Source: Candidatus Schekmanbacteria bacterium RIFCSPLOWO2_02_FULL_38_14
GTDB taxonomy: Bacteria; Schekmanbacteria; GWA2-38-11
Direction of reading: 5' to 3'
NCBI GenBank assembly: GCA_001790855.1
Contig: MGDH01000032.1
Span: forward strand, 20,713-45,217
DNA length: 24,505 bases
The notes under the pieces were generated by a model that was not told where the DNA came from, did no database searches, and saw only the letters and a program-made list of their open reading frames with translations. The translations under genes and the position numbers were made by a program. Shown here piece after piece: positions 1,408-16,201 of this stretch; positions within the stretch are counted from its first letter, which is position 1, and every line of letters begins with the position of its first letter.

Positions 1408-2106
1408 TTAAAGCTTATAGTCTGCGGCATATAGCGGGTCTTTGATGCCAGCCTCTGCAAAACCTTTCTTTCTCAGCATGCAACTGTCACACATTCCACA
1501 GGGTTTACCATTTTTAACCGGGTCATAACAGCTATGAGTAATGGAGTAATCAACTCCAAGGGACAACCCGTTTTTTATTATTTCTCCTTTGGTCATATTT
1601 ATCAGAGGCGCAAGGATTTTTATTTTGTCGGTTTCTTCTGCTCCGGTTTTTGTTCCAAGGTCTGCAAGGTTTTGAAATGCCTTTATGTATTCAGGCCTGC
1701 AGTCAGGATAACCACTCCAGTCAACTGAATTTACCCCAATGAAGATAGCCTTGCTGCCAATTGTTTCTGCCCATGCAAGGGCAATACTTAAAAATATTGT
1801 GTTCCTTGCAGGAACATATGTTGATGGAATTGAGCCTGATATTTCGCTGAGTTCCCGTTGTTTTGGAACAGACATCCCTGTTGTGAGACTTGAACCTCCT
1901 ATTTTTTTAAGGTCAATATCAAAAATCATATGCTCCTTTGCCTTGAACAGAGATGCTATTTTCTTTGCGCTGTTAATTTCATTTCCGTGTTTCTGTCCGT
2001 AGCAAAATGTAATTGGATAGAGTTCATAACCCTCCTGTTTTGCCATTGCCATCAGTGTTGCAGAATCAAGCCCTCCGCTTAAGAGTATGACAGCTTTTTT
2101 AGACAT
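1408..2106 (-). CDS. queC: 7-cyano-7-deazaguanine (preQ0) synthase QueC
   Basis: QueC is the ATP-dependent enzyme converting 7-carboxy-7-deazaguanine and ammonia to preQ0, the precursor of queuosine in tRNA. The 232-residue product has the family's usual length. Residues 8-15 carry the PP-loop LSGGLDSA that binds ATP. Near the C-terminus four cysteines (C193, C203, C206, C209, in HSCYDP and PCGMCDSC) form the structural zinc site. The start ATG at 2106 is preceded by AAGGAG, about 11 bases away. It is the last of three genes, queD-queE-queC, that together supply the route from 7,8-dihydroneopterin triphosphate to preQ0; a GTP cyclohydrolase is not in the window. The gap to queE is six bases, so one transcript is likely. 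Identification is firm. Confidence 0.97.
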   Translation of the reverse strand: MSKKAVILLSGGLDSATLMAMAKQEGYELYPITFCYGQKHGNEINSAKKIASLFKAKEHMIFDIDLKKIGGSSLTTGMSVPKQRELSEISGSIPSTYVPARNTIFLSIALAWAETIGSKAIFIGVNSVDWSGYPDCRPEYIKAFQNLADLGTKTGAEETDKIKILAPLINMTKGEIIKNGLSLGVDYSITHSCYDPVKNGKPCGMCDSCMLRKKGFAEAGIKDPLYAADYKL

Positions 2107-2112
2107 AGTGAA

Positions 2113-2751
2113 TCAGACTCCTTTTGCATTATGACCCCATATTATTTTGTGCATCTGAACCTGCAATCTTACATTCAGATTATCCTTCAATATCCATTCA
2201 GCCAGTTTTTTGGGGTCAAGGATACCATAAACCGGAGAAAACAAGATATTTTCTGTTATGCTTGTCAAGTTATTCTCTTCAATTATCTTTTTTGCCCAAT
2301 TATAATCGTTTTCATCCATAATCACAAACTTTACCTGGTCATTTCTGTTAAGATGGCTTAAATTGTTAAAATCCATCATTTCAGATTGACCGCTTCCGGG
2401 ACATTTGATGTCAAGAATCTTGATTACCTCTTTTGGAAGCCTGTTAACAGGCAGACTCCCATTTGTTTCAAACAGAATCAGGTACTTCATCTTTAGGGCT
2501 TTTTCAATAAAACCATATACTTCTTCCTGAAGCAGGGGTTCTCCTCCTGTGATTTCAATAAGGTTGCAGTTATAATTCTTTATTTTTTCCAAGATTTCCT
2601 GAGCTTTTATTTCATAGCCTTCCTCATAAGCAAATCTTGTATCGCAGTATAAACACTTGAGGTTGCAACCTGAGGTTCTTATGAAGATGCATGGAAGTCC
2701 CGAAAAGGTTGATTCTCCCTGTATGCTGTAAAAGATTTCACAAATTTTCAT
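2113..2751 (-). CDS. queE: 7-carboxy-7-deazaguanine synthase QueE (radical SAM)
   Basis: QueE is the radical S-adenosylmethionine enzyme that contracts the ring of 6-carboxy-tetrahydropterin to 7-carboxy-7-deazaguanine. The 4Fe-4S motif CxxxCxxC is visible as C29, C33 and C36 in GCNLKCLYCDT. The N-terminal FYSIQGE segment and the ITGGEPLLQ motif near residue 69, which contacts SAM, are hallmarks of this family. At 212 residues it is a normal length for QueE. Its ATG overlaps the queD stop codon (ATGA at 2748-2751), indicating translational coupling, and the gene ends six bases before queC. There is only a weak ribosome site (AGAAGAG) before the start, consistent with re-initiation by ribosomes finishing queD. 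Confidence 0.97.
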   Translation of the reverse strand: MKICEIFYSIQGESTFSGLPCIFIRTSGCNLKCLYCDTRFAYEEGYEIKAQEILEKIKNYNCNLIEITGGEPLLQEEVYGFIEKALKMKYLILFETNGSLPVNRLPKEVIKILDIKCPGSGQSEMMDFNNLSHLNRNDQVKFVIMDENDYNWAKKIIEENNLTSITENILFSPVYGILDPKKLAEWILKDNLNVRLQVQMHKIIWGHNAKGV

Positions 2752-3122
2752 GACTCTTCTGAATACGAGGCGCAGGATGTTTCTGTTTCCCAGACCCTTA
2801 CTTTTGATACTTTAATATTATCTGAGTTCATTTTGCCGCACAACTGATTGAAGACCCAGAGAGAGATATTTTCAGCTGTAGGGTTTTTATCCCTGAAGGG
2901 TTGGATTTCATTAAGGTTTTTGTGGTCAAGCTCAGCAAGTATCAGATTCGCAGCTTTTTTAATCTCTGCAAAATCCATGACCATTCCTGTTTTATCAAGA
3001 ACAGAGGATTTCACATAGACTTCAACTTTCCAGTTATGGCCGTGGAGAGCCTCACACTTTCCCCCATACTCTTTTAACTGGTGCGCAGCAGAAAAGCCTG
3101 ATGTTATCATCAATTCAAACAT
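2748..3122 (-). CDS. queD: 6-carboxy-5,6,7,8-tetrahydropterin synthase QueD
   Basis: QueD converts dihydroneopterin triphosphate to 6-carboxytetrahydropterin, the first dedicated step of preQ0 synthesis. Numbering from ATG at 3122, zinc ligands are H14, H27 and H29 (SAAH and LHGHNW), the catalytic cysteine is C23 (GGKCEALHGH), and LDHKNLN near residue 65 holds the conserved catalytic-histidine region. A TTG at 3137 would add five residues (LILKT). Neither start has a visible Shine-Dalgarno sequence; ATG is preferred because MFELMITSGFSAAH matches how family members begin. First gene of the que set, overlapping queE by four bases. No preQ1-type riboswitch was recognised upstream; the leader is filled with degenerate repeats. 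Confidence 0.93.
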   Translation of the reverse strand: MFELMITSGFSAAHQLKEYGGKCEALHGHNWKVEVYVKSSVLDKTGMVMDFAEIKKAANLILAELDHKNLNEIQPFRDKNPTAENISLWVFNQLCGKMNSDNIKVSKVRVWETETSCASYSEES

Positions 3123-3139
3123 AGTTTTTAAAATCAAAC

Positions 3140-15494: not shown

Positions 15495-15542
15495 TATTTG
15501 GAAGCTCCCCGGGCCGGACTCGAACCAGCGACAGGGTGGTTA

Positions 15543-16104
15543 CAAGTAATCCCAGTGTTTCCAAAGGGCTTGGACTATCTCATCACCCACTCTGATATAC
15601 AGCAAAGTTAGGGTGTCGGGCGCTTTTTAGAGGCTTATTGGTTGGGATCCTCACCTCTTAGTCTCTGCACGTTCTCGCTTACTTTTATCCCTTCAACGAG
15701 ATTCGCTCAGGATTACCATATCCTATGATATTATAGGATGTTAGGCTTCCCTGAATTCACCCGATTTTTCAACCACGGTTTCCCGTGGAAGCTGCAATTT
15801 TTAAATGAACCTCTCTATGACAATTGGCACAAAGTACTATGCATTTATCAAGTTCTTTTTTGATTTTTGACCAACTTCTTGTGTAACCATTATTTGAAAT
15901 ACCAAAATCCTTTCCATCTGAATCTAAGTGATGAAATTCAAGGGCTTCGATGCATTTACTATATCCACATCTACTGCATCTTGTTCCCTTGTATTCGAGA
16001 GCCATTTCTCTGAGCTTTTTACGACGCTTTTTAACGGCTCTGATCAAGTAGTCCCGACGATCTGCATAGTTTCTCTTGTCTTTTTTGGGGCTCATTTCCT
16101 GTTC
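15543..16104 (-). ncRNA. Group I self-splicing intron (562 nt) in the tRNA-Asn anticodon loop
   Basis: All core elements can be located. P1: exon GGCUGU (16110-16105) pairs with guide GCAGCU (15795-15790), placing the required U.G wobble at the 5' splice site. P2: CCACGG-GAAA-CCGUGG (15788-15773). P3: UCGGGUG (15764-15758) with CGCCCGA (15622-15616). P4: UUCAGG (15755-15750) with CCUGAG (15711-15706). P5 is capped by AUCCUAU/AUAGGAU. The R element GUGCAGAGACUA (15670-15659) and S element GAUAGUCC supply P7, GACUA with UAGUC (15577-15573). P8: CACCC (15615-15611) with GGGUG (15588-15584). The intron ends in the terminal G at 15543. P/Q sequences (AAUUCAGGGAAG, GGUAAUCCUGAGCGAAU) resemble cyanobacterial tRNA-Leu introns (IC3), but an extra helix AGAGG/CCUCU between P7 and P3' leaves the subgroup open. 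Confidence 0.93.
15769..16095 (-). CDS. Intron-encoded HNH homing endonuclease
   Basis: The 108-residue basic protein has an HNH nuclease motif: C40-x2-C43 and C89-x2-C92 as the zinc knuckles, H55-H56 (EFHHLD) as the first catalytic histidine region, and N91-C-H93-R-E-V-H97 as the C-terminal part. The first 35 residues are very rich in Lys and Arg (KKRRKKLREM), suited to DNA binding. ATG lies 10 bases inside the intron, after AGGA; the stop is in P2's 3' flank. The ORF therefore fills the P1 loop, and its codons for AASTGNRG also form the guide sequence and the whole P2 hairpin. It probably cleaves intronless tRNA-Asn genes to promote intron spread; target and activity are inferred. The motif appears intact. 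Confidence 0.9.
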   Translation of the reverse strand: MSPKKDKRNYADRRDYLIRAVKKRRKKLREMALEYKGTRCSRCGYSKCIEALEFHHLDSDGKDFGISNNGYTRSWSKIKKELDKCIVLCANCHREVHLKIAASTGNRG

Positions 16105-16201
16105 ACAGCCACCTGCTCTACCGACTGAGCTACCGGGGAATAAAACAGTTATTAACTAACAGTTTTATCTATTAGCTAAAACCATTTTAAAACTTTCTGA
16201 A

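Follow-up and report, generated by a model that had tools for sequence, protein, structure and literature searches.

A group I intron with an HNH endonuclease gene in the tRNA-Asn(GUU) gene of a Schekmanbacteria genome, and its relatives in other bacteria and phages

ORF-less group I introns occur in tRNA-Leu(UAA), tRNA-Arg(CCU) and tRNA-Ile(CAU) of cyanobacteria and proteobacteria. The endonuclease of the cyanobacterial tRNA-fMet intron is I-Ssp6803I, an enzyme of the PD-(D/E)xK type. The cyanobacterial tRNA-fMet group I intron with its homing endonuclease is attributed to Biniszkiewicz (1994) and Bonocora & Shub (2001), as cited in PMC8450103 and PMC3984707. The bacterial tRNA hosts of group I introns have been named as Leu, fMet, Arg, Gly and Lys (PMC5733544) and as fMet and Ile2 (PMC8450103), and some tRNAs with such introns, of types left unnamed, were described as hard to detect (PMC8172020). 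Archaeal group I introns were found only in rRNA (PMC6125680). In the collaborative homing of phages, a freestanding endonuclease and an ORF-less intron share one target (Zeng 2009; Bonocora & Shub 2009, as reviewed in PMC3984707), and it was stated in 2014 that all phage group I introns so far were located in protein-coding genes (PMC3984707).

The window analyzed here, a stretch of 24,505 nt from Candidatus Schekmanbacteria bacterium RIFCSPLOWO2_02_FULL_38_14 (GCA_001790855.1, contig MGDH01000032.1, 20,713–45,217), carries a group I intron in tRNA-Asn(GUU), a host outside the known bacterial list of Leu, Arg, Ile and fMet, with Gly and Lys. Searches of the open full-text literature turned up no description of tRNA-Asn as a group I host, and on the basis of open full text priority for this host is not claimed with certainty. 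Like the tRNA-fMet intron, the element is an anticodon-loop group I intron with an endonuclease gene apparently aimed at the anticodon region of the host tRNA gene, but its host is tRNA-Asn and its protein an HNH one instead of the PD-(D/E)xK type. With the ORF-less Leu, Arg and Ile introns it shares the RNA class, the anticodon-loop location and the core type, and it differs from them in its insertion between nt 35 and 36 and in an internal guide sequence (IGS) that reads C32-U33-G34-U35. The element appears to belong to a widespread class of tRNA-Asn introns that have a homing endonuclease family to themselves, with splicing and cleavage as predicted activities. The earlier note on this DNA, made from the letters of the window, did not recall tRNA-Asn as an established host; this agreed with the open literature but was incomplete, the host being common in the sampled genomes (71 genes).

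Coordinates below are window positions unless a locus label (L followed by a number) is given, and all features of the interrupted gene lie on the minus strand. The 5' exon (16105–16139) comprises nt 1–35 of the tRNA (35 nt) and ends in C32-U33-G34-U35, and the 3' exon (15505–15542; 38 nt) extends from U36 to the discriminator G73, with the CCA not encoded. Between U35 and U36 lies the intron of 562 nt (15543–16104), its final base being the omega G (15543). On the minus strand the 5' junction reads TCCCCGGTAGCTCAGTCGGTAGAGCAGGTGGCTGT / GAACAGGAAATG and the 3' junction GATTACTTG / TAACCACCCTGTCGCTGGTTCGAGTCCGGCCCGGGGAG. The joined exons give a 73-nt tRNA-Asn(GUU) with the anticodon loop CUGU/UAA, which places the intron inside the anticodon. 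When the predicted spliced sequence was used as a query, uninterrupted tRNA-Asn genes were found in two genomes of the same order, G003 (identity to the query 73/73 nt) and G002 (96%), while the window's own genome returned only the two halves, the remaining matches being partial and to other tRNAs. The exon junction is not guesswork, therefore, since the intact G003 gene equals the predicted ligated exons. The neighborhoods of these empty genes did not show conserved synteny, and they are consequently regarded as empty genes of relatives, the orthology of the loci being unproven. ARAGORN did not detect an intact tRNA anywhere in the window, which is the result that a gene with a long insertion should give. 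The earlier claim that a group I intron splits tRNA-Asn(GUU) within its anticodon, with halves 562 bases apart joining into a perfect 73-nt tRNA, was borne out to the base by the G003 gene, the Rfam match and the covariation described below. The alternative host tRNA-Thr(UGU), as which some of the introns are readable with the cut shifted by two bases, was rejected; the acceptor stem pair U1-A72 and the intact Asn allele favored Asn, and at the window locus the Thr reading leaves no omega G.

The Rfam family RF00028 matched 15817–15551 along its entire model (1–253), scoring 88.4 bits against a cut-off of 50 (E 1.2e-21) on the minus strand, where the earlier note had proposed to look for it, and was the single Rfam family above cut-off across the whole window. 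This catalytic core (15551–15817) was supported by an alignment of 43 tRNA-Asn introns, each beginning at its IGS and running to the intron's 3' end, which folds into P2, P3, P4, P5, P6, P8 and P9 with at least one double compensatory change in 33 of the 39 consensus pairs. The IGS GCAGCU (15790–15795) pairs with the exon sequence GGCUGU to form P1, and at the splice site the last U of the 5' exon faces the IGS G as a G.U wobble (CUGU with GCAG). It is followed by the P2 hairpin CCACGG-GAAA-CCGUGG (15773–15788; six covarying pairs) and by P3, whose 5' strand UCGGG (15760–15764) pairs with the 3' strand CCCGA (15620–15616) in five pairs, four of them with double changes. Covariation was also found for P8 (CACCC/GGGUG, 15584–15615) and for the P9 hairpin CCCUUUG-GAAA-CACUGGG (15551–15568). 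P7, the guanosine-binding helix, was read from the sequence and the RF00028 alignment (5' strand GACUA, 15659–15663; 3' strand UAGUC, 15577–15573); its motifs AGAGACU and AGUCC are nearly or fully invariant among the 43 introns, and it is for this reason without covariation support. The earlier note had written out, for this core, the P1 U.G wobble, the P2 hairpin with its GAAA loop, P3, P4, a P7 from R and S elements, P8 and the terminal G. The omega G was read directly from the window sequence; the split-tRNA finder used for the survey demands an intron-terminal G, and the survey therefore cannot test this feature independently. Wherever an IGS was placed in a tRNA-Asn intron it kept GCAGC (66 of 66), although the placement itself sought GCAGC, and one tRNA-Asn intron (L297) had no placed GCAGC. 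No covariation was found between IGS position 5 and tRNA base 31, the IGS C staying opposite G, A or C, so that P1 rests on C32-U33-G34-U35. P10, inspected by eye, was weak.

Approximately the first 330 bases of the intron are filled by an ORF of 108 aa (15769–16095) located in the P1 loop, which was missing from the earlier account, as was the position of the IGS (15795–15790) after most of this ORF. The reading frame continues through the IGS and P2, which its 3' end overlaps. The ORF was matched by PHROG HNH endonuclease families (E 1.5e-30) and, below the curated cut-off, by the Pfam HNH family (PF01844, E 0.0005–0.002); a Foldseek comparison with the PDB gave no solved structure at E <= 0.001, with HNH nucleases at the top of the weak list. 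Among 30 HNH relatives the residues C40, C43, H56, C89, N91, C92 and H93, comprising zinc cysteines and HNH residues, were invariant. Compared with its closest relative, at L058 in a Deltaproteobacteria genome, the window HNH showed dN 0.14 and dS 1.14 (dN/dS ~0.13), and dN being far below dS indicates that it is maintained by selection. The overlap between HNH gene and IGS recurred in 26 of 28 distinct HNH-bearing introns (L060 and L257 being one locus), and this arrangement suggests that translation could hinder splicing. The gene sits in a probable mobile element, and the tRNA-Asn genes of G002 and G003 are empty. Against plasmids the protein gave weak partial matches only, and the intron DNA matched no known phage or plasmid; it therefore has no close nucleotide relative there.

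The genome of the window (2.68 Mb in a 43-contig draft, 99.43% complete) contained 46 tRNAs above the Rfam cut-off, each typed with ARAGORN. None of the 46 was a tRNA-Asn and an intact tRNA-Asn pattern had no match in this genome, so that the interrupted gene is the only tRNA-Asn as far as the draft allows, which is the situation in which, according to the earlier note, every asparagine codon would depend on splicing. The intact pattern, an exact one that misses some real tRNA-Asn genes, was matched in 1 of 53 intron-bearing genomes versus 16 of 27 others, the latter being 10 of 13 from the Paceibacterota phylum, 4 of 12 from Omnitrophota, and G002 and G003. The single-contig Omnitrophota chromosome with L059 had the split tRNA-Asn gene only. 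Judged from these sequences, the interrupted gene would usually be the sole tRNA-Asn of intron-bearing genomes. Separately, tRNA-Ser(GGA) was not among the 46 tRNAs of the window genome, in which the Ser anticodons are UGA, CGA and GCU; its gene may be either interrupted or missing, and RF00028 finds one intron only in the genome. The window also holds a run of genes resembling queC, queE and queD (1408–3137, minus strand; named by eye from the ORFs), which belong to queuosine precursor synthesis. Queuosine sits on G34 of tRNA-Asn, near the intron site, and the presence of these genes in the same window is probably a coincidence.

Related introns were found in several phyla. When bacterial and archaeal genomes were scanned with the HNH protein, four loci were obtained. 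The three besides the window's came from a Deltaproteobacteria MAG (ranked by NCBI in the Myxococcota), an Omnitrophota chromosome and a Paceibacterota MAG, and all lay inside tRNA-Asn between U35 and U36. RF00028 matched 10 of 98 diverse genomes at E <= 0.001, with five loci, the window's included, being tRNA-Asn introns. In the phyla of the Paceibacterota, Omnitrophota and Deltaproteobacteria (L058) genomes, matches were obtained in 160 of 332, 170 of 334 and 10 of 297 genomes, respectively. The exons were read with a purpose-made split-tRNA finder for 70 of the better matches in each of the first two phyla; 43 were in tRNAs in the Paceibacterota phylum, 31 of them Asn, and 65 in the Omnitrophota phylum, including 31 Asn and 22 Tyr(GUA). 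Because the finder needs a U before the intron and a G at its end, and because most of the matches read were top-scoring ones, the Asn and Tyr counts are not unbiased frequencies. The sample from the third phylum (Deltaproteobacteria/Myxococcota) added 4 tRNA-Asn introns, with L330 being the L058 intron again, for a total of 67 + 4 = 71 interrupted tRNA-Asn genes, all at 35/36. On this sequence evidence tRNA-Asn appears to be a common group I host and not a lone oddity. CPR rRNA introns (PMC11270868) are comparable in that group I introns are abundant in the same phylum, but they have rRNA hosts and LAGLIDADG enzymes, tRNA being nowhere mentioned in that paper, whereas the enzymes of the tRNA-Asn introns are HNH proteins.

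The 22 Omnitrophota tRNA-Tyr(GUA) introns (L219–L247 and L289–L320; for example L219, L220, L222, L228 and L236) were likewise inserted at 35/36, none with an HNH gene. GCAGC was present near the 5' end in 22 of 22, C32-U33-G34-U35 is common to tRNA-Asn and tRNA-Tyr, and the Tyr introns grouped with some Asn introns (SH-aLRT 99); the shared GCAGC and the grouping suggest that group I introns moved between tRNA-Asn and tRNA-Tyr. In the 122 tRNA-borne introns examined, HNH genes (E < 1e-10, sense strand) were present in 29 of 76 in tRNA-Asn versus 0 of 46 in other tRNAs (Fisher p 1e-7, with related introns not independent), so that the host was tRNA-Asn for 29 of 29 intron-borne copies. Among introns of other hosts, those of tRNA-Met(CAU) at L215, L291, L313 and L318 (650–740 nt) contained an ORF with the motif VKSAWF...RRTKTNRR that resembles the I-Ssp6803I type, and those of tRNA-Met at L207, L270 and L274 a distant HNH on the opposite strand.

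Viral contigs yielded 80 HNH relatives, which formed 47 clusters at 90% identity, 41 of them with a tRNA within 400 bp. A flanking tRNA was tRNA-Asn in 27 of these 41 clusters, whereas 2000 within-locus shuffles gave 10.4 on average and never more than 18, and in Aeromonas phages 4_4572 and LAh_6 tRNA-Asn stood directly before the HNH gene. The HNH family therewith seems to be tied to tRNA-Asn, either intron-borne in bacteria or freestanding in phages. In two viral loci (L099 and L109), a freestanding HNH gene was directly upstream of a tRNA-Asn with an ORF-less intron (194 or 206 nt), and a phage-like tRNA cluster (L070) contained a tRNA-Asn with a 183-nt ORF-less intron. All three introns have the IGS GCAGC, the motif GUGUAGAGACU and the matching AGUCC; RF00028 did not reach significance for them, and their assignment accordingly rests on exon, IGS and core motifs. 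The L099/L109 layout would be the arrangement expected for collaborative homing, with freestanding endonuclease genes beside the gene whose intron site is the presumed target and, elsewhere, the endonuclease inside the intron; the known cases concern phage protein genes, unlike the shared target tRNA-Asn.

Three further loci on viral contigs were not counted as phage introns since the DNA there may be that of a host, flanking an integrated element: L076 and L091, where a serine recombinase adjoins the tRNA, and L073, whose intron end matches the Omnitrophota locus L059. The large serine recombinase genes (L076:1468–3165 and L091:2491–4224) end beside the intron-bearing tRNA-Asn, and integrating elements therefore seem to use such genes as a site. 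Additionally, Klebsiella phage Muenster (MT708547.1 ~302840–303088; L339:1428–1676) carries an unannotated RF00028 intron (104 bits) in an apparent tRNA with anticodon CAU, one gene upstream of a tRNA-Asn and an HNH gene of the window-ORF family, and in the uncultured huge phage LR756501.1 (735 kb; L340:1444–1733) a tRNA-Leu(UAA) is split by an intron of ~205 nt. Several tRNA-Asn genes beside HNH in viral tRNA clusters (L080, L081, L085, L090, L102 and others) were predicted at 84–91 nt, perhaps reflecting an enlarged loop.

The window intron was 82.7% identical to the L058 tRNA-Asn intron over 556 nt, and the two HNH proteins paired in the HNH tree (SH-aLRT 94). In the intron tree the window core grouped with two Omnitrophota introns (SH-aLRT 95). 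Both trees were built from short alignments and are poorly resolved, with few supported forks. Intron-borne and freestanding copies were mixed in the HNH tree with 9 changes, of which the supported branches force no more than one. The similarity to L058, the Omnitrophota grouping and the intact tRNA-Asn genes of G002 and G003 make gain of the window intron by transfer the simplest reading. The direction of recruitment was probably from freestanding to intron-borne, by analogy with the known collaborative-homing pathway (PMC3984707).

Three other explanations were weighed against these data. An old intron, inherited vertically in the window lineage, would account for an insertion site that is identical across phyla and is helped by the scarcity of supported tree forks, but it was judged distinctly unlikely given the intact genes in the same order, group I matches in so few genomes of L058's phylum (10/297), the 82.7% identity to the L058 intron over 556 nt and the grouping with the two Omnitrophota introns. 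It is less credible still that the intron is degenerate and unspliced, a second tRNA-Asn being hidden in an assembly gap and the interrupted gene a dead copy. A draft of 43 contigs leaves room for such a gap; the completeness of 99.43%, however, the coverage of all other amino-acid types by the 46 tRNAs, the unmatched intact pattern in 52 of 53 intron-bearing genomes and the split gene as the only one on the L059 chromosome speak against it, as do perfect exons, a core that retains every helix and an HNH gene under purifying selection.

More weight, though still a minor share, was given to a real intron in which the HNH protein is incidental, a general nuclease of phage tRNA clusters with no specificity for tRNA-Asn. 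Fourteen of the 41 viral clusters had no tRNA-Asn within 400 bp and some adjoined Ile, Met or Thr tRNAs, as such a nuclease would predict; the Asn enrichment nevertheless exceeded all 2000 shuffles, and the intron-borne HNH, confined to tRNA-Asn (29/29), was never found in the tRNA-Tyr introns with the same IGS and position.

The window element is, with high probability, a mobile, self-splicing and horizontally transferred group I intron that interrupts the sole tRNA-Asn(GUU) gene, with an HNH homing endonuclease directed to tRNA-Asn. By sequence, the IGS GCAGCU pairs with C32-U33-G34-U35, leaving the G.U wobble at the 5' splice site. In the proposed mechanism, as in other members of the group I family, exogenous guanosine would attack after U35 and the freed 5' exon would then attack after the omega G, giving a normal tRNA-Asn, so that asparagine decoding would depend on the ribozyme. 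The HNH enzyme encoded in the P1 loop, judging by its association with these genes, may cut tRNA-Asn genes that lack an intron, at the insertion site or close to it, and repair of the cut would copy the intron into them. The intron probably acquired this enzyme from a freestanding homing endonuclease of phage type whose target was already tRNA-Asn; the composite of intron and HNH would then have spread between phyla.

The HNH family was found in three settings: next to intact tRNA-Asn, next to a tRNA-Asn intron that has no ORF, and within the intron itself. A broader proposal, on which our judgment is evenly divided, is that tRNA-Asn is a major unreported group I host, in phages as well as bacteria, and has an HNH family of its own that occurs at every stage of intron formation, and that HNH translation and tRNA splicing may be coupled. 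An essential tRNA that exists only after splicing by a ribozyme would tie all asparagine decoding to a selfish RNA, a dependence that appears to recur widely in the sampled Patescibacteria and Omnitrophota; as standard tRNA finders miss interrupted genes, many genomes will seem to be without tRNA-Asn. The tRNA-Asn/HNH series would show, in a natural setting open to testing, how a freestanding endonuclease merges with a ribozyme into a mobile intron, with phages as the likely source, and the HNH enzyme may also be a compact nuclease that cuts tRNA-Asn genes site-specifically.
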